Of a stretch of DNA of 64,000 nucleotides, positions 2,243 to 41,555 are shown in pieces. Position 1 is the first letter of the stretch. Each line of letters begins with the position of its first letter. A program made the position numbers and the translations under genes. The DNA comes from a virus. The stretch lies in IMG/VR virus record IMGVR_UViG_3300033571_025639, positions 1-64,000 of that record; one strand, given 5' to 3'. The notes beneath the pieces were generated by a model. The model did not search any database and was not told where the DNA came from. It saw nothing but the letters and a program-made list of their open reading frames with translations.

Positions 2243-2583
2243 ATAAATTATTTGTTGGTTTATTCTGTATGGGTTTGTTATTCACTCAGTCATCCTACTA
2301 TGGCTCTACAACAGCCCCTGTAACCCTTGCTGGAGGAATTATTAAAGCTAAACACACTCAGGAAGCTACACAAAAATATAAAAGAAAAGATTGCCCAGTT
2401 TGTAAAGGCAAAGGCTGGTATATGAGTGGTGATGGTATATTAAAAATTGATTGCACATACTGTGAACCAGATAAAAGCTCGATATCTGTTGGACCAATAA
2501 CTTCTATCAATCCAAAACCTACAACAGAAAGCCCAAACTGCACAAGCGGTCAATGTAAACCATCTATTATAATTAGGAGATAA
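2239..2583 (+). CDS. Exported protein with a DnaJ-like zinc-binding motif
   Basis: I chose the ATG at 2239 because GGAGAG lies at 2226-2231 and it overlaps the previous stop as ATGA; an in-frame ATG at 2224 lies before this binding site. The 114-residue product starts with a signal-peptide-like segment (MNKLFVGLFCMGLLF), possibly a lipoprotein or secreted form. It then has CPVCKGKG at residues 52-59 and CTYC at 72-75, which together form one zinc site of the type found in the DnaJ central domain. The C-terminal tail is polar. No J domain is present, so it is not a DnaJ chaperone. The same motif occurs in the 1819-aa virion-type protein at 52175-57634. Confidence 0.65.
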   Translation: MNKLFVGLFCMGLLFTQSSYYGSTTAPVTLAGGIIKAKHTQEATQKYKRKDCPVCKGKGWYMSGDGILKIDCTYCEPDKSSISVGPITSINPKPTTESPNCTSGQCKPSIIIRR

Positions 2584-2585
2584 TC

Positions 2586-2984
2586 ATGGCAGACAACGAA
2601 AAGTTAAAAGCTATTGCTATTAAAGTCCTAGAAAAATCTAATGTTCCCAAAGAAGATAATTATGGTTTTGCAATAGTGACTGTGTTGATGATTATTAGTA
2701 TAATATTAACTTGTATAAGAATATTGCAAGAATGTAATAAGAATAAATTATCGACTTCCTCAACAGAGTCTGATAAGTATAATCTATATGGAGAGCAATT
2801 AAAAACATTCAGCACAAAGCGTGGATGGTTTACCAAAATGAGAATTAAGAAAATCTTAAGAAGAGAGATGACCAGAGAAGACTACGAAAAATATTCTTTT
2901 GCTATATTATCAGCTTTGCTAGATACAGGAGAAGTTCTCACGGATGAGGAGGTTATTACTTTAGTGGAGGCAGCCAATGTTTAA
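2586..2984 (+). CDS. Single-pass membrane protein, unknown role
   Basis: A 132-residue protein with one transmembrane segment at about residues 26-47 (FAIVTVLMIISIILTCIRIL) and a charged cytoplasmic-type C-terminal domain rich in Lys, Arg and Glu. A Cys lies in the segment and another just after it. No family recognised. It begins 2 bases after the previous gene and its end overlaps the GlsB-like gene, which carries its own GGAGG at 2966-2970. Confidence 0.6.
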   Translation: MADNEKLKAIAIKVLEKSNVPKEDNYGFAIVTVLMIISIILTCIRILQECNKNKLSTSSTESDKYNLYGEQLKTFSTKRGWFTKMRIKKILRREMTREDYEKYSFAILSALLDTGEVLTDEEVITLVEAANV

Positions 2985-3228
2985 TATTTTAGTATGGTGT
3001 GTTTATGGCATATTTGTTGGCAGTATTGCTAAGAGTTTAGTTCCAGGCGAAGAAAATTTTGGATTCATCAAGACAGTTGCTTTAGGTGTAGCTGGTTCTT
3101 ATATGGGTGGAGCATTACTTTATATGATTGGTCAGTATAGCACAGTAAGTCCAGCTGGTATATTTTCTGGGGTTGTTGGAGCTGTTATATCCTTGGTGTT
3201 GTACAATAAACTAGCGACATCAAAATGA
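2977..3228 (+). CDS. GlsB/YeaQ/YmgE-like integral membrane protein
   Basis: An 83-residue, almost wholly hydrophobic protein with three predicted membrane segments and the Gly-rich pattern of the transglycosylase-associated protein family: G-x-x-x-G-x-x-A-K near the start, then VALGVAGSYMGGALLY and a final GVVGAVISLVLY. Family members are small bacterial inner-membrane proteins of poorly known function, often stress-related. The start ATG at 2977 has GGAGG seven bases upstream. In a phage it could be a membrane-modifying or holin-like protein, but that is only a guess from its neighbours (membrane proteins and a peptidase). Confidence 0.6.
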   Translation: MFNILVWCVYGIFVGSIAKSLVPGEENFGFIKTVALGVAGSYMGGALLYMIGQYSTVSPAGIFSGVVGAVISLVLYNKLATSK

Positions 3229-3229
3229 C

Positions 3230-4777
3230 ATGCTTACCCCAAGACAACTCTATTTATCCTATTCGTTAAATCCATGTATTTTAGGCTCCGAATCTGGAGG
3301 AGTTGGATTAGGAACTCCGTATAGTCTACCAAGATTAATCAAATTTTTAAAACATCTAAAATATCCATGTATAGAATCTACTCCAAATATTGAAAATATA
3401 AGAGATACTGGAAAACAAAGGATCGGCATACCATATAAATTTTTATGTCGTGTGGATGCTGAGGCTTTTTGTGAAATTCAGCCAACGATTAGTAGTGGTT
3501 CTTCTCATGCTGTTAGAAATTCTGTTGATATAACACGAGCATGTGATCTTGAAGTATCAAATAATTATTCTTTATGGCAAAGCAGAACAGCCACAGAATA
3601 TATCCAGCATTTTGGAGGCAACTCATTAGTTGACTGCTTGATGACTTTAGGACCGGATTTAGTTTCCGATGAAACTGCTCAATCCAGAGCTACTGGTTGC
3701 GGTATAATGACTTGCTTACCAAATACACAATATGGAGCTGCTGGGGCATTACATTCTTGTACTAAATTAATGGGTGAGTTAACTGCTAAGTGTCGTAGTT
3801 GTAAAACCTGTAATAGTGATCCACCAGATCCACTTGATCCATGTTGTAATCCTGGTAATTGCACAGAGTATACTAATAAGTGTTGTGGAGGAATAATAAC
3901 AGATAGAGATGATTTTTCATTCTGGGTACCATCTGACGATAATTATTTTAGTGGTAATCAATTAGATGGATTTGTTGGTAAAATTCTTAAACATATTGGT
4001 ATTCTAAAGAGAAAAAGCTATGGAGGATATGGTAATTTTATAGATAATAGTGGGCCTAATTTCTATGGATGTAGAGACGATGTTTTTTTAAAGTATTTTC
4101 AAAGCATTAATGGATATAATTATACTGATGATACTATCATACCGCAAACAACCCCTCCAGCCACTAGAATAGATAGATGCAGATCCATCTGCATGATTAA
4201 CTATACTGATATGAATAGAAATATTGGCATGATCAAAGATTTAATTTATAATGGTTATGGTATCGTATTAATGACTAATGTTGGTTTCCCAGATTTTCGT
4301 GATTCTACTGGATTAAGTTATCCAGATAAAATTTGGTATCACTCATATTCTATCATAGGATACGATGATACTAAACTACAATATCCTGAATGCGTTTATT
4401 TACTATCTAATAGTTGGGGTGAATGGAACAGCGGAGGAGAGCCATTCTGGGGACCAATACCCAAAGGAAGTTTTTTGGTTACTGAAAGCCATTTACGATC
4501 CATGATATCTTTTAATCAATCGCCCAGCTACAAAGGCTGCAAAGCAAGATATTGTCCTCCACCATGTACGAATCCCAGTGAATATGCTGCTTGTAGCGAA
4601 GACTCTAGCTGCGTACCATTTGAATGTACAGACAGACAAAGAGCATTCGGATTAGTTTTTGCATTATCTACTACAGAAGGTTTTACAAAGAGAACTCTTA
4701 ACTATAAACAATTTTTACCAATAAATAAACTAAGATCATTAAATCAACCATCAGAACTATTTTTTAAGAGCTATTAA
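3230..4777 (+). CDS. Papain-like peptidase homologue lacking the catalytic Cys
   Basis: A 515-residue paralogue of the peptidase at 1042-1965. The His (His371 in WYHSYSIIGYDD) and Asn (Asn394 in LSNSWGEWN) of the papain triad are kept, as are the RN-x3-ITRA segment and the GPIPKGSF stretch. The position of the nucleophile, however, reads ISSGSSH (residues 87-93): Gly90 aligns with the Cys when counted from the conserved His, with Ser next to it. Gln84 is kept. A Cys-rich insertion (about residues 188-220, with CRSCKTC and several CC pairs) and a second Cys-rich stretch near residues 442-465 are absent from the shorter protein. It is probably a non-proteolytic structural or binding protein. 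It is followed after 2 bases by the long repeat protein. Confidence 0.75.
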   Translation: MLTPRQLYLSYSLNPCILGSESGGVGLGTPYSLPRLIKFLKHLKYPCIESTPNIENIRDTGKQRIGIPYKFLCRVDAEAFCEIQPTISSGSSHAVRNSVDITRACDLEVSNNYSLWQSRTATEYIQHFGGNSLVDCLMTLGPDLVSDETAQSRATGCGIMTCLPNTQYGAAGALHSCTKLMGELTAKCRSCKTCNSDPPDPLDPCCNPGNCTEYTNKCCGGIITDRDDFSFWVPSDDNYFSGNQLDGFVGKILKHIGILKRKSYGGYGNFIDNSGPNFYGCRDDVFLKYFQSINGYNYTDDTIIPQTTPPATRIDRCRSICMINYTDMNRNIGMIKDLIYNGYGIVLMTNVGFPDFRDSTGLSYPDKIWYHSYSIIGYDDTKLQYPECVYLLSNSWGEWNSGGEPFWGPIPKGSFLVTESHLRSMISFNQSPSYKGCKARYCPPPCTNPSEYAACSEDSSCVPFECTDRQRAFGLVFALSTTEGFTKRTLNYKQFLPINKLRSLNQPSELFFKSY

Positions 4778-19020: not shown

Positions 19021-19794
19021 ATGGCGTTGACGTTCTTACTTATTAAGAAGGGCCAAACTTTGAGAAAAACTAATAAAAGGTCTAAAAAGACCAAAGTAGT
19101 CGATGCAACAAATAGTCTTCAGCCAGTTCCAGAAATCTATAGAAATAGATTGAAACCCAGAACAGATAATCAAAAAGAATATCTGAGAACTATACTAGAA
19201 AGCAATATAACCTTTTGCCAAGGTGTTGCTGGTAGTGGTAAGACACACTGTGCCGTAGGTTTGGCTATAGAACATTTACTTGATGAGAAAGTAAAAAAAA
19301 TTATTATTACAAGACCTGTGGTGGAAGCAGGTGAAAAAATAGGATTTTTACCAGGAGATGCTGACTCAAAATTACATCCTTACTTGTTACCCATACTTGA
19401 TGAAATAAATCATTTTATCTCACTGTCTCATTATAATTCGCTGAAACTAAATAATAAAATCGAAATTGTTCCACTAGGATTAATGAGAGGTAGAAATTTT
19501 AATAATTGTTTTATTATAGCAGATGAGTGCCAAAATGCTTCTTATGAGCAACTCAAAATGTTAATTACTAGACTTGGCAAGGATAGCAAGATGGTACTCA
19601 CTGGCGATATCAGTCAGTCAGATTTACAAAGACATTTACAGGGTGGTTTTTATGAGATGATAAAACAATTAGAGGGGATAGAAGGTATTGGGATTTCAAG
19701 ACTTCAATTTTCCGATATCGTTAGACACCCAATTATTGCTAAAATTCTTAGTAGGCTCGATACTTACGAAAATCAAAATGAGACCAGAAAATAG
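19021..19794 (+). CDS. phoH: PhoH-like P-loop ATPase
   Basis: A 257-residue protein. GVAGSGKT (residues 68-75) is the Walker A, CFIIADECQNA the Walker B, with TRPVVEAGEKIGFLPGD in between, the hallmark of the PhoH family. The core is followed by a VLTGDISQSDL sensor segment. PhoH is common in phages; its task is unsettled, with helicase or RNase-associated roles proposed. The N-terminal 45 residues are basic. Its 3' end overlaps the HNH gene by 17 bases. Confidence 0.9.
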   Translation: MALTFLLIKKGQTLRKTNKRSKKTKVVDATNSLQPVPEIYRNRLKPRTDNQKEYLRTILESNITFCQGVAGSGKTHCAVGLAIEHLLDEKVKKIIITRPVVEAGEKIGFLPGDADSKLHPYLLPILDEINHFISLSHYNSLKLNNKIEIVPLGLMRGRNFNNCFIIADECQNASYEQLKMLITRLGKDSKMVLTGDISQSDLQRHLQGGFYEMIKQLEGIEGIGISRLQFSDIVRHPIIAKILSRLDTYENQNETRK

Positions 19795-20359
19795 TAGATG
19801 CCTTGTTCTTAATGCTGACTGTACTCCATTAGGTATTATTGATTGGAAAAAGGCTCTTACTTGGTATATTAAATATGAGAATGACGATACCCAAGGAATA
19901 GAAATAATTGATTTCTATAAAGATGATTATATTTGTGGTGTCAATAATAAAAAATTCCCAATACCAGCAATAGTTAAAACAGCTAAGTATTTTAGAGTTA
20001 ATAATCAAAAAGTAAATTTCTCTAGAAAAAATCTATTCATACGAGATAATTATACTTGTCAATATTGTGGAGAAAAAAAAGATCTTAGCAAATTAACATA
20101 CGATCATGTTATTCCTAAGTCGAGCTTCCGTGGTCAATCGGAATCTCCAACTACATGGACTAATATTGTAACGGCCTGTGTTGAGTGTAATAGAAAAAAA
20201 AGAAATAGGACTCCCAAACAAGCCAACATGCCTCTGCAAAACTTGCCAATAGCACCGAATAAGAGTCCAAAGTACTTGCCTATCACCCACATGCTTCTTA
20301 GGATAAGGTCGGACATACCATCGGAGTGGTCGGTTTATTTGCCGGAATCATACTTATAA
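19778..20359 (+). CDS. HNH endonuclease
   Basis: A 193-residue protein. I chose ATG 19778, which gives the usual start RPENSRCLVLNADCTPLG; the frame is open further upstream only inside phoH. The HNH domain runs from about residue 85: YTCQYCG, LTYDHVIPKS (the catalytic His) and ACVECNRKKRNRTP, with the two CxxC pairs holding zinc. The N-terminal part matches phage and bacterial HNH proteins of this architecture. It may act in packaging, recombination or host DNA cleavage; it is not inserted into another gene, so it need not be a homing enzyme. Confidence 0.85.
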   Translation: MRPENSRCLVLNADCTPLGIIDWKKALTWYIKYENDDTQGIEIIDFYKDDYICGVNNKKFPIPAIVKTAKYFRVNNQKVNFSRKNLFIRDNYTCQYCGEKKDLSKLTYDHVIPKSSFRGQSESPTTWTNIVTACVECNRKKRNRTPKQANMPLQNLPIAPNKSPKYLPITHMLLRIRSDIPSEWSVYLPESYL

Positions 20360-21877: not shown

Positions 21878-22294
21878 ATGTCTGATCAATATTTATCAAA
21901 TTATTCTAACGGTAAAACTGTATCCGCAGCACAATTTATAACAGAAATTATTTGCGAAAGGAAAGCCCAGTCTACCAAGCAAGATTTACATTATAGATTT
22001 TGGCTAGAAAAAAAATGGTCTGCTTTCTATAGGAACCAAATAGGATCAGCACATAAGTTGCTTAAAAAATACTCTTCTAAAGCTATCATAAGAGCATTGA
22101 ATACTGATCAAGGAAGAAAAATCTATTCTTTGCGAGCACCACATCTTCCAGCTATTATAGAGAGTCAAGAACAAATTATCCAACAAGAAAATACAGATCT
22201 TACTCTTCATATAGAGAGAAAAGAAAACATTTCTTTTGGTATTAAAAATCAATCAAAGAATATTATTTCTAAACTGAAGGACTTAGATCAATGA
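21878..22294 (+). CDS. Basic hypothetical protein next to recA
   Basis: A 138-residue basic protein. FRNQ, KLLKKY and the middle segment around YRFWLEKKWSAFYRNQ suggest a small alpha-helical nucleic-acid binder; it resembles no family I can name. Its TGA overlaps the recombinase ATG by 4 bases, which suggests a tie to recombination or replication. Confidence 0.6.
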   Translation: MSDQYLSNYSNGKTVSAAQFITEIICERKAQSTKQDLHYRFWLEKKWSAFYRNQIGSAHKLLKKYSSKAIIRALNTDQGRKIYSLRAPHLPAIIESQEQIIQQENTDLTLHIERKENISFGIKNQSKNIISKLKDLDQ

Positions 22295-24339
22295 GTTTAA
22301 AAGAAGATGTTATTAAGGATTTTGGTAATGAAATTATGCTAACAGCCAGCGCTGTTGTAGATAAAAAATTAATTACCATTCCAGTGAGTCCATCATTAGA
22401 CATTATATTGAATGGTGGTGTACCAGAAGGAAGCTTTATGATTTTAACTGGTCAACCAAAATGCGGCAAAGAGATGCCATTAAATAGCTTAATATATACT
22501 CCCGATGGACCAAGAACAATGGGAGAAATGAAGGTTGGAACAGTAGTCTGTACTCCGGATGGTAATACTGCAAAAGTTATTGGAGTATATCCACAGGGAA
22601 AGAAGGATATTTATAAGGTCACATTTAATGATGGTTCTTCAGCAGAGTGTGGATTAGAACACAACTGGACTGTTGCCAAAAATAATCGCAAAAGTGACTA
22701 TGTAACGATAACCCTAGAAGAGATTATGAGCGAGGGGCTGAGATATAATGATCGTTGGAAGTGGAAGATTCCGTTAACAAAACCAGTTTACTTTAAACAG
22801 CAGAAGAAACTTATTCTTGATCCATATATTTTGGGTTGCTTGATTGGTGATGGTGGACTAACACAAAAGACCCCTAGATTCACAACTTCTGATACCTTTA
22901 TAGCAAGCAAGTTTAGAACTTTCTGTAAAAAAAGAGGACTATCTTTTAGGCATATTGATAAGTACGATTATTCTATTAGTGGTAATGTAGAGTCAAGTGT
23001 TATGGTAAAGAATACTCTAACCAGAGATCTGAAGAAACTAGGATTAATGGGTTGCGGGTCTCATGCCAAATTTATACCAACCGCATATAAGTATGCTTCT
23101 GTGGCCAATAGACTATCTTTGGTTCGTGGACTAATGGATACCGATGGATATAATAGCAAAGGTAAAAGGGCAGAATATTCAACGGTATCACCAAGATTAG
23201 CTTCTGATGTTAGAGAACTTTTAGAGGGGTTGGGTTACTCTGTTGTGTCAACATTAAGAAATACTAACTGTAATAATAAGAGTTTTCTTTCATATAGACT
23301 CTGTATTCATGGTAATGACATTAATCAACTATTCAGTTTACCTAGGAAAAAGACCAAGCACAAAAGAATCAAACCTGACTTGTGTAGGACTATTATTGAT
23401 GTGCAAAAGGTTTCTCGCGAAGAAGCCCAGTGCATAGAGATAGACCATAAGGATGGACTTTATTTAACTGATCGTTTTATTGTTACTCATAATACCACAA
23501 CATCTCTAGATTTCGCAGCAACCGCACAAAGACCAGAATATGCTTATAAAGAACTCAAAGAAGGAAGAGAGGTCTATTATCTCAATATTGAGGGTAGACT
23601 TAAGAAACGAGACCTAGAAGGCATCCCAGGACTTAATCTAGATAGATTTCACATCATTGGCTCTCAACAAGGCAAGATATTACATGCGGAAGAATATCTC
23701 CAGATCGGAGAAAGAATCATAAATGAAATACCGGGATGCGTTCTAATTATAGACTCCTACTCTGCATTATGCACGGAAACAGAAATCACATCAGATATGA
23801 GTAAAATGCAAAGAGCAGACGGAGCTAAGTTATTAGCTAAATTTTGTAGGAAAGTGGCTAATGTTATTCCTGTAAATAGGAATATCGTGGTAGGCATTAC
23901 TCATCTTATGGGGAACCCTGGCACTGGTCATGTTGAATGGAAAGAAAAGAGTGGTCAAGCTATTGCTTATCAAACTGATATCAAGCTCAGAGCACAATTC
24001 CACAGAGCATGGAAAATTGGAACATCAGAAGATGGTCAGCAGATTGGCCAGGAAATACAGTGGCAAGTTATTTGCTCTGCGTTGGGCGCTCCCGGCGGCA
24101 CAATTACCAGCTACATTAGATATGGTCAGGGTATTGACAAGCAGATGGAACTATTAATGCTGGCAGCAGATATTGGATTGATACAAAAGGGTGGAGCTTG
24201 GTATACATTAACTTCAGTAGAAGATAAGCCTAAATTCCAAGGAACTGAAAAAGTCAGACAATATCTGGTTGACCATCCAGACGTTTATGAGAGCTTATTA
24301 GCACAAGTTAAAGAGACTATGGGCATTAAATGCAAATAA
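22291..24339 (+). CDS. RecA/UvsX-like recombinase precursor with intein
   Basis: A 682-residue precursor. Without the intein (residues 61-401) the two exteins give a 341-residue RecA-family ATPase, a normal length. The rejoined Walker A reads GQPKCGKTT; the Walker B is VLIIDSYSALC, and NIVVGITHLM and a YQTDIKLRA segment match the RecA core. It would form filaments on single-stranded DNA and drive strand exchange for recombination-dependent replication and repair. It needs splicing to be active because the intein splits the P-loop lysine from the threonine. Its ATG overlaps the previous gene and its stop overlaps the next by 10 bases. Confidence 0.9.
   Translation: MSLKEDVIKDFGNEIMLTASAVVDKKLITIPVSPSLDIILNGGVPEGSFMILTGQPKCGKEMPLNSLIYTPDGPRTMGEMKVGTVVCTPDGNTAKVIGVYPQGKKDIYKVTFNDGSSAECGLEHNWTVAKNNRKSDYVTITLEEIMSEGLRYNDRWKWKIPLTKPVYFKQQKKLILDPYILGCLIGDGGLTQKTPRFTTSDTFIASKFRTFCKKRGLSFRHIDKYDYSISGNVESSVMVKNTLTRDLKKLGLMGCGSHAKFIPTAYKYASVANRLSLVRGLMDTDGYNSKGKRAEYSTVSPRLASDVRELLEGLGYSVVSTLRNTNCNNKSFLSYRLCIHGNDINQLFSLPRKKTKHKRIKPDLCRTIIDVQKVSREEAQCIEIDHKDGLYLTDRFIVTHNTTTSLDFAATAQRPEYAYKELKEGREVYYLNIEGRLKKRDLEGIPGLNLDRFHIIGSQQGKILHAEEYLQIGERIINEIPGCVLIIDSYSALCTETEITSDMSKMQRADGAKLLAKFCRKVANVIPVNRNIVVGITHLMGNPGTGHVEWKEKSGQAIAYQTDIKLRAQFHRAWKIGTSEDGQQIGQEIQWQVICSALGAPGGTITSYIRYGQGIDKQMELLMLAADIGLIQKGGAWYTLTSVEDKPKFQGTEKVRQYLVDHPDVYESLLAQVKETMGIKCK
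22471..23493 (+). mobile_element. Class 3 intein with LAGLIDADG homing endonuclease
   Basis: A 341-residue in-frame insertion between Lys60 and Thr402 of the recombinase P-loop. It starts EMPLNSLIYTPDGPRTMGEM, with no Cys or Ser at position 1. It has the three class 3 residues: Trp126 after the block B His124 (EHNW), Cys381 at the start of block F (QCIEID) and Thr399 before the final His-Asn (IVTHN). The +1 residue is Thr402. Between the splicing blocks are two LAGLIDADG-type motifs, ILGCLIGDGGL and VRGLMDTDGY, with acidic residues in place, so the endonuclease may be active. Such endonucleases copy the intein into empty recombinase alleles. Confidence 0.9.
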
Positions 24340-24749
24340 AAGATCTTGACGGCAATCTTTGCAATTGGCAACTCATTGGAGGCATTGCTCATGGTGCCGC
24401 TAAAAATAAATCTTCTTTGCATTTGACTGCTAGAGAATTAATACATAAATGCTTCCCAACTATGCAGATACTTGAGGAAGTAGCGATTCCTTTGAGAAGA
24501 TCGGAAACTCTATATTTGGATTTTTATATACCTCTTTTAAAACGAACCGTCGAGGTGCATGGTGAACAACATTATAAGTTTACTCCATTTTATCATAGCA
24601 CATTATTAGGATTTGTAAAACACAAAAAAAGAGATCAGGAAAAACAAGAGTGGTGCGAAATAAATGGTATTTCATATATTGAATTACCTTTCAACGAAAA
24701 CGAAGAATCATGGTTAAATAGGATTAAAAATGAACAACAAAACAGCTAA
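24330..24749 (+). CDS. PD-(D/E)XK-type endonuclease, small
   Basis: A 139-residue protein. The segment YLDFYIPLLKRTVEVHGEQHY has the D...E-x-x core of Vsr/DUF559-like nucleases, followed by K-K-R-D-Q-E-K-Q-E-W-C and ISYIELPFNE, the final strand. It begins inside the end of the recombinase gene (10-base overlap) and overlaps the next gene by 20 bases. It might resolve recombination intermediates or cut host DNA. A divergent mobile endonuclease is also possible. Confidence 0.6.
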   Translation: MQIKDLDGNLCNWQLIGGIAHGAAKNKSSLHLTARELIHKCFPTMQILEEVAIPLRRSETLYLDFYIPLLKRTVEVHGEQHYKFTPFYHSTLLGFVKHKKRDQEKQEWCEINGISYIELPFNENEESWLNRIKNEQQNS

Positions 24750-28802: not shown

Positions 28803-29839
28803 TAACATATCTAAGAAGTAGTTCTTATGGCACTCACTCAATGTGTCCACAGCAATATTTTTTTGAATATATTCTTGGCTTAAGATCTCCGTCTAATAAA
28901 AAAGCTGACAAGGGGACTGTGGTGCATAAAGTTCTAGAGATATTGGCATATGTCAAACTTAATCAACAAAATAAAATAAATATTTTTGAAGACGATGTTG
29001 TTGGTTCTGTGAATATTAATAATTACAGCTTAAATACGATCATAGAAAAAGTATATAAATACTATACCTCAAGATTCACCCACCACGAATGGGACATAAA
29101 GGATTATAAAGATTGTCACGGATGGGTTTACAAAGCCCTAGAATACAATGGTGGCATGTTTGACCCTAGGAATAGGGACATAGTGCAGCCAGAGCAGCAT
29201 TTTGACATAGAGATTAAAAAACCATGGTCTTCTTATAAATACGATACTAAAGATGGATTACTAGAAGGTAATTTAGCTATCAAGGGCACAATAGATCTTA
29301 TCACCAGGATTAATGATAAAACCTTAGAAGTAATAGACTGGAAGACTGGAAGAAGACTAGATTGGGCGACAGGAGAAGAAAAAACCCAAGAAAAGCTACA
29401 AAATGATCCTCAACTAAGAATATATCATTATGCTATACAACATTTATATCCAGAAATTGAGCATGTTATGATCTCTATTGATTTTATTAATGACGGTGGG
29501 GCATTTACTATTTGTTTTGACAAAAGCGATCTTTTCAAAACAGAAATCATGCTTAAGAATAAATTTGAAACTATTAAGAATACACAAAAACCTCAACTTA
29601 ATAAAACCTGGAAATGTACTAAGCTATGTCATTTTGGGAAAACAACATTTGAGAATACTTCCATAGCTCCAATAATAGAATACAGAGATAATCAGATAAC
29701 ACCAAAAGATAAGTGTATGACTAAGTGCGAGCAAGTAAAGCATGATATAGACACCAAAGGCACAGAAGTCGTGATTGACGAATATCAAACTCCGGGTTAT
29801 AGTATTGGACACTACAAGGCACCCGGAAGCACCGCATGA
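28796..29839 (+). CDS. RecB/Cas4-like PD-(D/E)XK nuclease, apparent AUU start
   Basis: The conserved N-terminal motif TYLRSSSYGTHSMCPQQYF begins upstream of the first ATG (28841). Reading upstream, the frame is open and I find ATT at 28796 and ATA at 28799 and 28802, with AGAGGGG at 28782-28788, about 8 bases before the ATT. No ATG, GTG or TTG occurs at the right place, so an AUU start is proposed. The roughly 347-residue protein has GTIDLI and VIDWKTGR (the catalytic Asp and the DxK) then QLRIYHYAI, the RecB nuclease core. Cys residues (MCPQQ, CTKLC, CMTKC) may bind an iron-sulphur cluster as in Cas4 and AddB. A PHP-polymerase gene overlaps its end. Confidence 0.75.
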   Translation: MIITYLRSSSYGTHSMCPQQYFFEYILGLRSPSNKKADKGTVVHKVLEILAYVKLNQQNKINIFEDDVVGSVNINNYSLNTIIEKVYKYYTSRFTHHEWDIKDYKDCHGWVYKALEYNGGMFDPRNRDIVQPEQHFDIEIKKPWSSYKYDTKDGLLEGNLAIKGTIDLITRINDKTLEVIDWKTGRRLDWATGEEKTQEKLQNDPQLRIYHYAIQHLYPEIEHVMISIDFINDGGAFTICFDKSDLFKTEIMLKNKFETIKNTQKPQLNKTWKCTKLCHFGKTTFENTSIAPIIEYRDNQITPKDKCMTKCEQVKHDIDTKGTEVVIDEYQTPGYSIGHYKAPGSTA

Positions 29840-31710
29840 AAAATTATACTCCGCTCCATTGTCATTCGATGTATAGCTTATTGGATGGATTGTCTCAGCC
29901 AAAAACAATGGCCGAAAGATGTCAAGAAATTGGAGCATCTTCTTGCGCTCTAACAGATCATGGTAACATAGCCGGAACTGTTAAGTTTTATACTGAAATG
30001 AAAAAGCATGGTATCAAACCCATATTGGGTTGCGAGCTATATATTTGCAACGATAATCCATCAATACAAAGCAAAGAGAATAAAGATCTTAGTCATTTTG
30101 TAATATTGGCAAAAAACTTTGAAGGATGGAAAAGCTTAATCAGAATAACTTCAGAGTCTAATAGGCCAGACTTCTATTATCACAAGCCGAGACTCAGCCT
30201 ATCAACCCTAGCGCAGTTCTGCAACAACAATATTATTGGTTTTTGCGGACATGCTGGTTCAACTATAGCTGACAAGATTATGCTAGGAGAAAGTCTAAAT
30301 CCAGATTGGAAAGAAATTGGCATTCAACAAATCGGCCTATATAGAGAGATATTTGGTAGAGACAATTTTTTTCTTGAAGCCCAATTAATGGATTCAGAAA
30401 ACTCACCAATTCAGAAGATATTGACCGATGCGATGAGAGAGCTTGCAAAGCATACCTCTACCAAGATTATAGCCACACCAGACGCTCATTATTGCCGCAA
30501 GGAGGACGCAATTGATCAAAGAGTACTGCTGTGCAATAATTTAAAAACAACCTTCCCAGAGATCAGCAGGAAGATCACGAATGATGAGGAAGTTCCTCTT
30601 GGCTGCTTTTTTACATCTGACAACTTTCACATATTATCTCAGGAAGAAATACGATTATTTCACACAGAGGAAGAAATCGAGAACACCAATTTTGTGGCTA
30701 ATTTATGTGAAGAATATAATATTTTGGATAAGCCACAATTACCACCATTTCCATGTCCAAACAATCTGGACGATGCTGAGTATCTGAGAGAATTATGTAG
30801 AAACGGATGGAGAGAGAAAATTGCCAATGATATCCCAAAAGAAGACCATGGTAAGTATGTTGATAGGATTAAATATGAGCTTGATGTTTTACAGGGAGCT
30901 GGGCTATCAAGCTACTTTTTGATTGTGCAAGATATTGTGAATTATGTTAGGTCTAATAATTGGCTCCCAGGACCAGGAAGAGGAAGTGCTGCTGGTTGCT
31001 TAGTCTCTTATTTAATCGGTATTACTAGTATAGACCCGATTAAGTATAATCTTCTTTTCGATAGATTTTACAATGCTGGTCGTAATAGTAAAGACCATAT
31101 CTCAATGCCAGACATTGATGTGGACGTACCAATTAATAAAAGAGAAAATGTTATCGAATATATTAAACAGTGCTACGGAAAAGACAAGGTGTCTCAAATG
31201 ATAACATTCAATACGATTAAAGGTAGAGGAGCTATCAAGGATGTCTTAAGAGTATATGGTAATATATCTTTTGATGAGATGAATAAAATTACTAAAAGTA
31301 TTCCAGATGAGTCCAAAATTGCCGACGATCTTCAAGAAATGAAAGAAGAAACCGGAGAAGCATCAATTATTAGATGGGCTTTAGAAAATCAGCCAGATAA
31401 GCTTAGGGAGTGGTGTTTTATCGATGAAAAGAACGAATTACAAGGACCACTTGCAAAAAGATTTGAGCAGGCTATAAGATTGGAAGGCACCAAGTCTAAT
31501 CAGTCCAAACATGCCGCTGGTATAGCCATTAGTGCCAATCCATTAAATATATCATGCCCAATGGTTTATGATTCAAAAAACGAACAGATGATAGCTGGCA
31601 TGGAAATGCAAGATTTAGAATCGTTAGGTATAATTAAGTTTGATATTTTAGGTGTAGCGATGTTAGATAAAATTATGACTATTCGAGACATTTTAAGAAC
31701 AGGAGAATAA
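29836..31710 (+). CDS. DNA polymerase III alpha (DnaE), N-terminal half
   Basis: A 624-residue protein that holds the PHP domain (CHSMYSLLDG, TDHGNIAG, and DAHYCRKEDA) and the first part of the C-family polymerase core. GRGSAAGCLVSYL begins the palm, PDIDVD gives catalytic Asp426 and Asp428, and IIKFDILGV gives Asp603, the third catalytic Asp. The chain then ends after IRDILRTGE. In bacterial DnaE the next part of the palm, the fingers and the OB domain would follow; here they are in a separate gene at 32606-34234. The ATG overlaps the nuclease stop by 4 bases. Confidence 0.92.
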   Translation: MKNYTPLHCHSMYSLLDGLSQPKTMAERCQEIGASSCALTDHGNIAGTVKFYTEMKKHGIKPILGCELYICNDNPSIQSKENKDLSHFVILAKNFEGWKSLIRITSESNRPDFYYHKPRLSLSTLAQFCNNNIIGFCGHAGSTIADKIMLGESLNPDWKEIGIQQIGLYREIFGRDNFFLEAQLMDSENSPIQKILTDAMRELAKHTSTKIIATPDAHYCRKEDAIDQRVLLCNNLKTTFPEISRKITNDEEVPLGCFFTSDNFHILSQEEIRLFHTEEEIENTNFVANLCEEYNILDKPQLPPFPCPNNLDDAEYLRELCRNGWREKIANDIPKEDHGKYVDRIKYELDVLQGAGLSSYFLIVQDIVNYVRSNNWLPGPGRGSAAGCLVSYLIGITSIDPIKYNLLFDRFYNAGRNSKDHISMPDIDVDVPINKRENVIEYIKQCYGKDKVSQMITFNTIKGRGAIKDVLRVYGNISFDEMNKITKSIPDESKIADDLQEMKEETGEASIIRWALENQPDKLREWCFIDEKNELQGPLAKRFEQAIRLEGTKSNQSKHAAGIAISANPLNISCPMVYDSKNEQMIAGMEMQDLESLGIIKFDILGVAMLDKIMTIRDILRTGE

Positions 31711-31712
31711 AT

Positions 31713-31910
31713 ATGGCAATTAAAAAATTTATGGAAGTTACTGTTGGTCAGACATTTAAGCTAAAAAACGAACAGGGTGCTGTAAATGATTATGTAAAAC
31801 TTACAGAAGAAAGAATAAGTTGTTGTAAGGTTATAAATGCAGCATTACTAGCAGATCAAAATCAGCGGATTCAAGTTTTACCCTTAATAGAAGTAGAAGT
31901 AAACGACTAA
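31713..31910 (+). CDS. Small hypothetical protein between polymerase halves
   Basis: A 65-residue protein with alternating hydrophobic and charged residues, likely a small beta fold (FMEVTVGQTFKLKN, then a strand ending in LPLIEVEVND). No recognised family. It begins 2 bases after the N-terminal polymerase half and ends 4 bases before the exonuclease gene, with AGGAG before its ATG. Its conserved place within a split polymerase suggests a link to the replisome, which is inference. Confidence 0.55.
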   Translation: MAIKKFMEVTVGQTFKLKNEQGAVNDYVKLTEERISCCKVINAALLADQNQRIQVLPLIEVEVND

Positions 31911-31914
31911 ACTA

Positions 31915-32613
31915 ATGATTAACTATAATAAAATTTGCGTTTTCGATTTTGAGACAGATGGTTCTGATCCTCGTGTTTGTAGTCCAGTGCAAATAGCATC
32001 TGTCATTATTGATCCAATTAAGCTTGAATTAGTTCCAAATTCTGAATTTAATATTTTCTTTAAACCAGATGTATTAGCTAAAGATGAAAATTATGAATAT
32101 ACAACAGATATTCTGGACTTTCATGCCAAAGTCAAGGGATGTTCCAAGGACGATATTCTAAAAGAATGGAAAGCTTATCCTTCACAAGAACAATCTTGGA
32201 AAATGTTTACAAATTATTTAGAAATGTATCATAGTAGGTCTTCTAAAAAGAGTCAATTTAGTGCTCCTATAGCTGCCGGTTATAATATTAATCGCTTTGA
32301 CCTACCGATAGTAGATAGACTCAGTAATAAATATGGCAACGTCAACAAGGAATCAAAGAGTGATATCTTTTATCCTAGGGATGTGGTCGATATCATGAAT
32401 CTGATTTTCTATTGGTTTGAAAATAATGGTGACTTAAAAAGTTATAGTCTAGATTCATTAAGAGACTACTTTGGAATCTCTAAAGCAGGAGCACACGACG
32501 CATTGAAGGATGTGAAGGACTGTGCCGATATTTTAATTAGATTTCTTAGATTACATCGTAATTTAAGCAATAAGATCAAATTCAAGGACTCTTTCTCTAC
32601 TAGCAATGTCTAA
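31915..32613 (+). CDS. DnaQ-like DEDDh 3'-5' exonuclease
   Basis: A 232-residue protein. Exo I is VFDFETDGSDP (Asp and Glu), Exo II is AGYNINRFDLPIVD (Asp), and Exo III is GAHDALKDVKDCA (His and Asp); the set is DEDDh. It is the likely proofreading subunit, since C-family polymerases of the DnaE type use a separate exonuclease. The gene lies between the two polymerase halves and overlaps the start of the second by 8 bases. Confidence 0.9.
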   Translation: MINYNKICVFDFETDGSDPRVCSPVQIASVIIDPIKLELVPNSEFNIFFKPDVLAKDENYEYTTDILDFHAKVKGCSKDDILKEWKAYPSQEQSWKMFTNYLEMYHSRSSKKSQFSAPIAAGYNINRFDLPIVDRLSNKYGNVNKESKSDIFYPRDVVDIMNLIFYWFENNGDLKSYSLDSLRDYFGISKAGAHDALKDVKDCADILIRFLRLHRNLSNKIKFKDSFSTSNV

Positions 32614-34234
32614 AAAATTTCAATATTCTTGCGGTTGTTCTTTTGATGTTCTTCCAGACTCTACGGATGAGCATATACATATCAACTTTGATCCAACGAT
32701 AGAGCACATTCATTTGGATTGTTCTAAAACTTGGCAGTTGATTTCCGATGGAAATACCAAAGGGTGTTTTCAGCTGGAGTCTAGGTTAGGTAAATCAATG
32801 GCTAAAAAGTTAAAGCCAGAAAATATAGAGCAGTTATCTGCGTTAATAGCCATTTTGAGGCCTGGGTGCTTGGAGGCAATGAGAGAAGGGAAAAGCGTTA
32901 GCAATCATTATATTGATAAAAAAAATGGTAAGGAGTCTGTAGACTACTATCATCCTGTACTAGAGGAGTCCTTAAAGAATACTTATGGAGAGATGATTTA
33001 TCAAGAGCAAGCTATGGAAATAGCTAGAACTGTTGCCGGTTTCGATCTTCAAGAAGCGGACATGTTAAGAAAAGCTATCGGCAAGAAGAAGCCTGAAGAA
33101 ATGGCAAAAATTAAAGTTAAATTCATTAAAGGATGCGAAAAGGTAGGCACGGTATCAGTTGATCAGGCAGAAGAAATATTCGGATGGATCGAAAAATCTC
33201 AAAGATACTCATTCAATAAGTCCCACTCTGTATCATATGCAATAAATGCATACTTATCGGCATTTGCAAAAGCACATTTTCCCAAGATATTTTTCGCCTC
33301 ATACCTAAGATTTGCGAAAGATAAGATTGATCCAAAAGCAGAGATTAAAGAGTTAGTACAAAACGCTAGCGAAATGGATGTTTCAGTATCAATACCAGAT
33401 ATCAGAAATCTTAATAAACTATTTGTACTAAAGAATGAAAAAATCTATTTTGGTTTAACTGATATTAAAGGCTTTGGACAATCAGTATTTGATAAACTAA
33501 TCAATATCAAAAATACTAAGCACTTGGATTTCGAAACGATGAATTGGATAGAAATGTTATTGCAAGTATTAATGAACATAAACTCCATATCTGCAAAAGC
33601 ATTGATACAGAGTGGGTCTTTGTCTTATTTAAATAAAAGTAGGGCATGTATGTTATTTGAATTTAATCTAGCTTCTGAACTAACTAAGAAAGAGGCTGAA
33701 TTCATACTCATTAATATACAGAAATATAAGTCTTTAGGTGATGGCTTATATGATCTATACCATAATGGTAAATCAAACAAGAATAGAAAATCAATAATAT
33801 TAGGATTAATCAATAACTATAATAAGCCACCCCACTCTTTGGAAGATAATCCAGAATGGATTTCCGACACAGAGGATGAGATACTGGGATGCAGCATCAC
33901 CTGTTCTAAAGTAGATATGTATGATATTACTATGACGAACACAACATGTAAAGATTTCAAAACATCATTAATGAGCGATAACCTTATCTTGTGCGGTGAG
34001 ATCGATAATCTTAGTGTTACTAAGACTAAGACAGGCAAAAATCCTGGACTAGAAATGTCTTTTGTTACATTGAGCGATGGGACTGGAGTTCTGGACTCTG
34101 TTATTTTCTTTCCAGAAGCATACAAGGCTTATAGAAATATTTTATTCCAAGGCAATGTTATCATAGTTAAGGGTAGCAGATCAAAGAACGGCGATTCGTT
34201 TATCGTAGAAAAAACTTATATTCCAAAGACTTGA
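32606..34234 (+). CDS. DNA polymerase III alpha (DnaE), C-terminal half
   Basis: A 542-residue protein. After about 40 residues with CGCSFDV and a HIHINFDP segment, it enters DnaE at TWQLISDGNTKGCFQLESRLG, then ALIAILRPGCLEAMR, GEMIYQEQAMEIA and RYSFNKSHSVSYA (fingers). A helix-hairpin-helix-like part follows (YFGLTDIKGFG), then an OB-fold near the end (LILCGEIDNLSVTKTKTG, FVTLSDGTGVLDSVIF). With the N-terminal half it gives 1166 residues, close to a full DnaE. Its TGA lies inside the ssb promoter palindrome. Confidence 0.9.
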   Translation: MSKKFQYSCGCSFDVLPDSTDEHIHINFDPTIEHIHLDCSKTWQLISDGNTKGCFQLESRLGKSMAKKLKPENIEQLSALIAILRPGCLEAMREGKSVSNHYIDKKNGKESVDYYHPVLEESLKNTYGEMIYQEQAMEIARTVAGFDLQEADMLRKAIGKKKPEEMAKIKVKFIKGCEKVGTVSVDQAEEIFGWIEKSQRYSFNKSHSVSYAINAYLSAFAKAHFPKIFFASYLRFAKDKIDPKAEIKELVQNASEMDVSVSIPDIRNLNKLFVLKNEKIYFGLTDIKGFGQSVFDKLINIKNTKHLDFETMNWIEMLLQVLMNINSISAKALIQSGSLSYLNKSRACMLFEFNLASELTKKEAEFILINIQKYKSLGDGLYDLYHNGKSNKNRKSIILGLINNYNKPPHSLEDNPEWISDTEDEILGCSITCSKVDMYDITMTNTTCKDFKTSLMSDNLILCGEIDNLSVTKTKTGKNPGLEMSFVTLSDGTGVLDSVIFFPEAYKAYRNILFQGNVIIVKGSRSKNGDSFIVEKTYIPKT

Positions 34235-40319: not shown

Positions 40320-40786
40320 TGGATATAGGTTTTTATTTACTAGATGTAGATGCAAAAAATTCTTTACAGACTAAAATTTTAACCGCAGTTAATCAGCTGT
40401 GTGAAGACCGTCCCTATGACAACATAATAGTATTTAATAATCAATTTAATAGGTTAGATCATAGACACAAATATTATATGCTTCATATACAACAAGCTAA
40501 ATATTTCGATGGTATCCTATTTGTTTTTGATACTAAAAGTGCTATGCTTACACAAACATTTCCTTCTCCTAAAAAACAGATTATGTTCATGTCAGAACCA
40601 GAATGGGCAATCAACCCTGCTTTACCATACGGATTTTGGTATAATATCTATATGAAGCCGCAAATTGAACTACTTACGGATAAAAAAGAAACCCACGATA
40701 TAATTGATATTTGTTGGAAAAAACCAATAGGGCTAATACCAGAAATTAATAGCAAGGAATTACAGAATGTCATCTCTAAACTATAA
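40319..40786 (+). CDS. Hypothetical protein at the end of the sugar island
   Basis: A 155-residue alpha/beta protein. The N-terminal segment GFYLLDVDAKNSLQTKILTA and the central DGILFVFDTKSAMLTQTFPS suggest a Rossmann-like half domain; a Trp-rich C-terminal part (EPEWAINPALPYGFWYNIYM) follows. It may pair with the preceding gene product as the two halves of one GT-B-like protein, but that is conjecture. It overlaps the endonuclease gene by 20 bases. Confidence 0.45.
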   Translation: MDIGFYLLDVDAKNSLQTKILTAVNQLCEDRPYDNIIVFNNQFNRLDHRHKYYMLHIQQAKYFDGILFVFDTKSAMLTQTFPSPKKQIMFMSEPEWAINPALPYGFWYNIYMKPQIELLTDKKETHDIIDICWKKPIGLIPEINSKELQNVISKL

Positions 40787-41555
40787 ATCTCTTAATGACA
40801 ATCAAAAACTAGATATTTTGAAGAAACTATATGTACAAGAAAAACTTAGTTTTCAAGATATCGCGTCCAAGTTTGATACTTATGCCAATCAAATTCGCAG
40901 AGATGCCAAAAGACTGAACATTAAAATCAGAAATAAGAGTGATGCTCAAAAAAATGCTCTTAAAACTGGTAAGCATAAGCATCCAACAAAAGGATCTCAA
41001 AGATCTACAGAAACTAAAGAAAAAATTGGTAAAGCAGTAATGACCTCTTGGGATGGATTAACCGAAAAAGAGCTTAAGCAGAGACAAGACAAGAGTAGAG
41101 CTTTATGGGAGAGCATGGATAATGATGTTAAGGAGAATATTCTAAAATCCGCTAATGCTGCTGCTAGATTAAGCAGTAAAACCGGATCAAAGTTGGAAAA
41201 ATTTTTATTGAATAGACTGCTCAAAGATGGCTATTCTGTTGATTTTCATAAGGAGCAAGTCTTATCAAATACAAAGTTGCAGATTGATCTTTTTCTTCCT
41301 AGTATGAATGTGGCTATCGAAGTTGACGGACCATCTCACTTCTCTCCAATTTGGGGAGATGATGCTCTGGCAAAAAATAAAAAATATGACGAGAAAAAGA
41401 ATGGCTTGCTTATTGGTAAAGGTGTTGCACTCATACGGATCAAGCAAAAAAAGGATTTTTCAAACGCTAGAGGCAATTTAATATATGATCAATTATTGGA
41501 TCTATTAAAAACACAAAGTTATAAAACAAATAGTATCATAGAAATAGAGGACTAA
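40767..41555 (+). CDS. Vsr/DUF559-like endonuclease with N-terminal HTH
   Basis: A 262-residue protein. An HTH near residues 18-45 (LSFQDIASKFDTYANQIRRD) is followed by a KHPTKGSQRSTETKEKIGKA stretch like the NUMOD DNA-binding repeats of homing endonucleases. The nuclease core is at the C-terminus: TKLQIDLFLPSMNVAIEVDGPSH, with the catalytic Asp and the E-V-D, then ALIRIKQKK. The build fits a mobile endonuclease. It lies between genes, not within one, as a free-standing homing endonuclease would. Confidence 0.65.
   Translation: MSSLNYKSLNDNQKLDILKKLYVQEKLSFQDIASKFDTYANQIRRDAKRLNIKIRNKSDAQKNALKTGKHKHPTKGSQRSTETKEKIGKAVMTSWDGLTEKELKQRQDKSRALWESMDNDVKENILKSANAAARLSSKTGSKLEKFLLNRLLKDGYSVDFHKEQVLSNTKLQIDLFLPSMNVAIEVDGPSHFSPIWGDDALAKNKKYDEKKNGLLIGKGVALIRIKQKKDFSNARGNLIYDQLLDLLKTQSYKTNSIIEIED

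Follow-up and report, generated by a model that had tools for sequence, protein, structure and literature searches.

The window, by which is meant the whole stretch of 64,000 nucleotides that was analysed, is part of a 113,887-base virus record, a metagenome-derived contig. It carries a gene for a RecA/UvsX-like recombinase in which the two halves of the Walker A motif are separated by a long insert in the same reading frame. The features of the locus are the following.

22291..24339, plus strand: precursor of a RecA/UvsX-like recombinase, 682 aa, a single open frame free of stops
22291..22470, plus strand: N-extein, 60 aa, ending in the Walker A residues GQPKCGK (Lys60)
22462..22464, plus strand: P-loop residue Cys58, at extein position -3; speculatively, a possible redox partner
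22471..23493, plus strand: class 3 intein with LAGLIDADG endonuclease domain, 341 aa, precursor residues 61-401
22471..22785, plus strand: Hint splicing domain, N-terminal part, intein residues 1-105; boundary approximate
22666..22668, plus strand: Trp126 (intein W66), block B:12
22786..23382, plus strand: LAGLIDADG endonuclease domain, intein residues 106-304; boundary approximate
22822..22854, plus strand: LAGLIDADG motif 1, PYILGCLIGDG, with acid intein D127 (precursor D187)
23119..23151, plus strand: LAGLIDADG motif 2, LVRGLMDTDGY, with acid intein D225 (precursor D285)
23383..23493, plus strand: splicing domain, C-terminal part (blocks F and G); boundary approximate, from the solved-intein alignment, the model and the fold match
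23431..23433, plus strand: Cys381 (intein C321), block F:4, predicted to act as the initiating nucleophile
23485..23493, plus strand: Thr399-His400-Asn401, the THN of block G
23494..24339, plus strand: C-extein, 281 aa, starting at Thr402 (+1 residue, second half of Walker A)

A preliminary description of this DNA had placed an intein at 22471-23493 and had singled out Trp126, Cys381, Thr399, His400 and Asn401; its coordinates and residues were exact. The junctions fall precisely between Lys60 and Glu61 and between Asn401 and Thr402, and the C-extein begins TTTSLDF. The limit of the N-terminal part of the Hint domain is the author's reading of the match to solved inteins (residues 3-77), the model and the fold match. 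Removal of the insert leaves a recombinase of 682 - 341 = 341 residues (60 + 281); that insert and ligated protein are of equal length is a coincidence.

In Pfam, the precursor scores above the gathering cut-off with both RecA (E 1.7e-10) and RecA_C (E 1.4e-9). In L003, a relative without the insert, residues 7-275 match Pfam RecA (E 1.3e-16), and the protein also matches the PHROG UvsX-like recombinase (E 2.6e-36). With TIGR02012, the equivalog model for bacterial RecA, L003 scores 97.6 bits and the precursor 75.6 bits, below the cut-off of 325.3. Since the Pfam and PHROG families match but the TIGR02012 score falls short, the host is named here a RecA/UvsX-like phage recombinase rather than a bacterial RecA proper. 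Relatives of L003 in named phages are distant, with identity below 60% in all 233 records and about 30% in the best of the matches listed.

A search with the C-extein gave 504 relatives, and the best 80 of them served as recA loci. In 73 of these the site is empty, the two flanks meeting with 0 bases between them; it is occupied in six and partial in one; in L067 an intein end is visible where the locus is cut by the end of the contig. The closest empty allele among the 80, L003, has an N-extein identical to that of the window over 60 residues and a C-extein 97% identical, and 22 of 24 bases around the site are common to both. Because 73 of the best 80 recA loci are uninterrupted at this exact codon boundary, the insertion is not a chance feature of the reading frame, and the P-loop site that the preliminary description had put between Lys60 and Thr402 stands. 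The junction could in principle have been made by faulty assembly or by a chimera, the record being a metagenome-derived virus contig, but this is vanishingly improbable: the junction recurs in independently assembled contigs, with an identical insert in L002 and at least 30 distinct inserts in RecA-type hosts, and this recurrence rules an artefact out.

Class 3 inteins are characterized, in the cited passages of one paper (PMC5222942), by a Trp at B:12, a Cys at F:4, a Thr at G:5 and a Ser or Thr at +1, with no requirement for a first nucleophile. According to passages of a second paper (PMC6195587), the WCT triplet of DnaBi1 consists of Trp67, Cys118 and Thr137. Alignment of the window intein by phmmer with the solved structure of DnaBi1 (6bs8) puts W66 on Trp67, C321 on Cys118 and T339-H340-N341 on T137-H138-N139. 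Position 1 is Glu61, which is not nucleophilic, and the C-terminal Asn401 is followed by Thr402, in agreement with the class 3 pattern of Asn and a +1 Ser or Thr. The intein also scores 37.4 bits against gp41-1 engineered to contain the WCT triplet (6riz), compared with 29.7 bits against native gp41-1 (6qaz). In the parts of the literature cited, an engineered gp41-1 intein with the triplet alone failed to splice.

Conservation was assessed in a set of related inserts. Loci matching the intein numbered 109; five were dropped (L067, L074, L086 and L165 as partial, L096 for masked letters), and the remaining 104 yielded 72 distinct inserts, which take in the window, three loci from named phages (L098-L100) and some near-identical pairs. 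As they were gathered by similarity to the window intein, the figures that follow describe its kin and not inteins at large. The Cys at F:4 (C321), the block B His (H64), H340 and N341 are present in all 72 inserts, W66 and T339 in 71 each, and insertion follows Gly-Lys in 70. The class 3 assignment made earlier is thus upheld, each residue of the triplet pairing with its counterpart in a class 3 intein of known structure and being invariant or nearly so among relatives. Eight of the 72 (L131, L144, L146, L152, L153, L155, L163 and L167) have a Cys or Ser at position 1 in addition to the class 3 Trp and Cys; absence of a first nucleophile is therefore not universal in this lineage. These eight could use either splicing route, or could be intermediates. 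In L131 an Ala replaces the Thr of the triplet.

The endonuclease domain is recognized by Pfam LAGLIDADG_3 above its cut-off (E 1.5e-8, precursor residues 275-344), and phmmer matches intein residues 118-302 to PI-SceI (E 2e-5). Both LAGLIDADG motifs, described earlier as intact, have their acid, which is an Asp in 71 of the 72 distinct relatives, window counted, with Glu in the one exception at motif 1 and Asn in the one at motif 2. A search of the record itself with PF14528 matched a single place, the intein; one with PF05203 gave zero matches, controls included, and is uninformative.

An AlphaFold2 model of the intein, built on 41 aligned inteins, has a mean pLDDT of 94.7 and a pTM of 0.92, and shows the Hint fold together with a PI-SceI-like endonuclease architecture. 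Its top fold matches are full-length endonuclease inteins. PI-SceI, the yeast VMA1 intein, uses class 1 chemistry. It is likewise full-length with a LAGLIDADG domain, and superposes with Z 27.9 and rmsd 3.2 over 326 residues (1ef0_A), but it resides in a V-ATPase and is 20% identical to the window intein. For the splicing domain, the match to class 3 DnaBi1 (6bs8_C) has Z 19.9 and rmsd 1.6 A over 123 of its 125 residues; class 1 Hint domains score alike (Prp8, Z 19.3; gp41-1, Z 19.1). Since these lie within 1 Z of DnaBi1, the fold supports an endonuclease intein without favoring any one class. The RecA intein of Mycobacterium tuberculosis occupies a different RecA site. It shares the RecA host and the Hint fold (2in9, Z 16.2), but in the sources cited has Cys1 and an Asp at F:4, which is the class 1 pattern.

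Several lines of comparison bear on the history of the intein. Between the window and L041 the inteins are 84.8% identical and the RecAs 80.6%, with 64 of 104 fourfold sites identical in the intein and 31 of 79 in the C-extein; between the window and L084 the corresponding identities are 84.5% and 77.5%. More extreme pairs run in both directions, L120 and L126 having inteins 85% alike in RecAs 41% alike, and L066 and L073 having RecAs 95% alike with inteins 68.5% alike. Over 29 RecA-type loci (all but L156), 259 of the 406 pairs are more alike in the intein than in RecA. In the intein tree the window, L041, L084 and L085 form one clade (support 100/99), whereas in the RecA tree the window is sister to the empty L003 (97/96). 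Forcing the RecAs of the four intein-clade members together costs 287 log units (p-AU 1.8e-58), in an AU test whose group was picked from the intein tree and which was run once the RecA tree had been seen. Occupancy changes at least six times on the RecA tree, which is enriched in occupied loci and has several meeting long branches, none of them among the window, L041, L084 and L085. The dS between the inteins of the window and L041 (0.98) is lower than that between the C-exteins of the window and L003 (1.48), which fits arrival of the intein after the window and L003 had separated, dS values near 1 being rough. Judged from these sequence comparisons, the intein moves between RecA lineages, and its closest kin are found on other RecA branches.

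Values of dN/dS, calculated by NG86 with the author's own script, were 0.067 for the splicing part and 0.090 for the endonuclease part against L041, and 0.071 and 0.066, respectively, against L084. By this measure both domains are under purifying selection and neither looks decayed. The suggestion that the element may still move is probably correct, in view of an intact, selected endonuclease domain and of past movement apparent in the trees.

From the aligned residues, splicing is predicted to begin with attack of Cys381 on the Lys60-Glu61 peptide bond, giving a branched thioester. The N-extein would then be transferred to Thr402 and Asn401 would cyclize, after which an acyl shift would yield the 341-residue recombinase with GQPKCGKTT restored, and a free intein of 341 residues. 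The endonuclease would cut intein-free recA at the P-loop codons, and repair from an occupied copy would insert the intein. Being conserved, and probably indispensable to the host protein, the P-loop offers a target that is good and hard to lose. With such a target and a predicted mechanism for homing, the element is best seen as a selfish one, without an established regulatory role. The reading preferred here, at a probability of about 0.92, is that of a class 3 intein with a PI-SceI-like LAGLIDADG endonuclease, lodged as a selfish homing element in the Walker A motif of a RecA/UvsX-like recombinase.

Two other accounts concern the chemistry and the fate of the insert. Thr402 might attack the N-terminal junction directly, as in class 2, making Cys381 dispensable; position 1 has no nucleophile, and passages of one paper allow either route in principle for inteins with the signature. 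Such a route is most improbable given the invariance of the Cys at F:4 and the near-invariance of the Trp at B:12 among the 72 relatives, and given that the Cys at F:4 was absolutely required in the three class 3 inteins dealt with in the cited part of PMC5222942. It is also very improbable that the insert is a degenerate intein unable to splice, leaving recA null and recombination to the host or to another protein. Splicing of the window intein is a prediction, and a class 3 intein in a pseudogene is reported in the cited portion of PMC3196547; the frame here, however, is open without a stop, all the tabulated splicing residues are in place, and dN/dS is 0.066-0.090 in both parts against L041 and L084.

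A third account takes splicing to be a switch. The precursor is presumably unable to use ATP, because Walker A is split and by analogy with RadA, the P-loop intein of Pyrococcus horikoshii RadA disrupting ATPase function in the passages cited. Splicing might be held back until a signal, either ssDNA or redox state, is received, and would so regulate phage recombination. The analogies come from the P. horikoshii RadA intein, also in the P-loop of a RecA-family protein, whose splicing is accelerated nearly 50-fold by ssDNA according to the excerpts cited, and from class 3 DnaBi1, which is blocked by a Cys48-Cys118 disulphide (PMC6195587, passages cited). In the window protein, Cys58 lies at position -3 of the junction, and the intein has a Cys at residue 27 that is kept in 25 of 30 RecA-type relatives, compared with 7 of 42 others. 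But only 13 of the 30 RecA-type hosts have the Cys at -3, which is absent from the other hosts listed, and the RadA inteins have no endonuclease and are not called class 3 in the passages cited. The intein is absent from 73 of the 80 related RecAs (best 80 of 504), and a regulatory need is hence not evident. A conditional switch is rather unlikely on this balance. The specific redox trap of DnaBi1 was rejected, as it is not conserved: Cys48 aligns with Ile47. A more elaborate proposal is that splicing would at once release the cutter and activate the recombinase that repairs the cutter's break, with ssDNA or oxidation of Cys58 and Cys381 as a timer; this coupling, rather than chance alone, would explain the many independent acquisitions in phage RecA P-loops. 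Such a homing machine is distinctly unlikely.

Among known systems, DnaBi1 of Mycobacterium smegmatis is alike in its WCT triplet, THN end, Hint fold and site in the P-loop of DnaB. It differs in being a mini-intein in a helicase with a +1 Ser and the redox Cys48, whereas the window intein has an endonuclease, a RecA-type host and Ile47. The mycobacteriophage TerL1-a intein likewise separates the two invariant Walker A residues, Lys and Thr, but its host is a terminase; the passages cited name TerL, DnaB and RecB, not RecA, as class 3 hosts, and describe mycobacteriophage inteins of classes 1 and 3 for which horizontal transfer was proposed (PMC5050341). The RadA inteins of P. horikoshii and Thermococcus sibericus occupy the P-loop of a RecA-family recombinase, but the sources cited describe them as archaeal mini-inteins without endonuclease, with conditional splicing shown by experiment; the window intein is known from sequence. 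Phage P-loop class 3 inteins and archaeal RadA P-loop inteins were thus already on record (PMC5050341 and PMC6195587, in the passages cited). A literature search, in which subscription papers were mostly out of reach, found no description of a class 3 intein in a RecA P-loop, and RecA is apparently a newly described host family for class 3 inteins.

A class 3 intein at this site had been thought uncommon, which does not hold: in viral contigs such inteins were found in at least 30 distinct hosts that are RecA or RecA-like, window counted. One of the searches behind this figure kept 80 of 559 matches, and the figure is not an estimate of abundance; rarity among viral RecAs is rejected. Among the matching named phage records, none covered 80% of the precursor of the window (0 of 864), L120 (0 of 876), L137 (0 of 666) or L156 (0 of 1805). 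In L156, at 2363-4324, a class 3-type intein lies in the P-loop, and the match of the exteins to annotated phage RecA is at about 56% and falls into two pieces. A scan of genome contigs for cellular hosts gave four loci, none looking like RecA by its flanks. In L074 the end of another intein (IVTHN followed by T) lies in a PhoH gene at 22-123, and recA is empty. L180 has a related intein in a PhoH-like protein (2495-3544), after Gly-Arg instead of Gly-Lys, and the lineage thus also uses sites other than the P-loop.

At this locus the P-loop of a RecA-type protein holds a natural class 3 intein whose endonuclease domain is intact, and empty alleles 97-100% identical per extein are at hand for comparison. 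With alleles so nearly identical, a single pair of proteins would allow three questions to be tested: the chemistry of class 3 splicing in its native host, homing among phages, and whether inteins of the RecA family react to ssDNA as that of archaeal RadA does. The 72 related P-loop-type inteins, eight of them with a position-1 Cys or Ser as well as the triplet, bear on the origin of class 3.

Some further features of the window may be mentioned. DNA polymerase III alpha is divided between two ORFs within 29836-34234, and nuclease ORFs occur at several places.

19688-20359: HNH endonuclease ORF (Pfam HNH, E 6.5e-13)
29836-31710: DNA polymerase III alpha ORF, PHP and NTPase domains
31915-32613: exonuclease ORF (RNase_T), between the two polymerase ORFs
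32606-34234: DNA polymerase III alpha ORF, finger, HHH and OB parts
40767-41555: nuclease-like ORF (PHROG HNH endonuclease, E 3e-14)

The 3′ end of recA is overlapped by a nuclease-like ORF of 139 aa at 24330-24749, which matches a PHROG homing endonuclease (E 1.2e-15) and has no Pfam match. It was considered as a part of the intein element and rejected, since it is found at all 80 related recA loci, occupied or empty; it looks like a core recombination gene that lies outside the intein.
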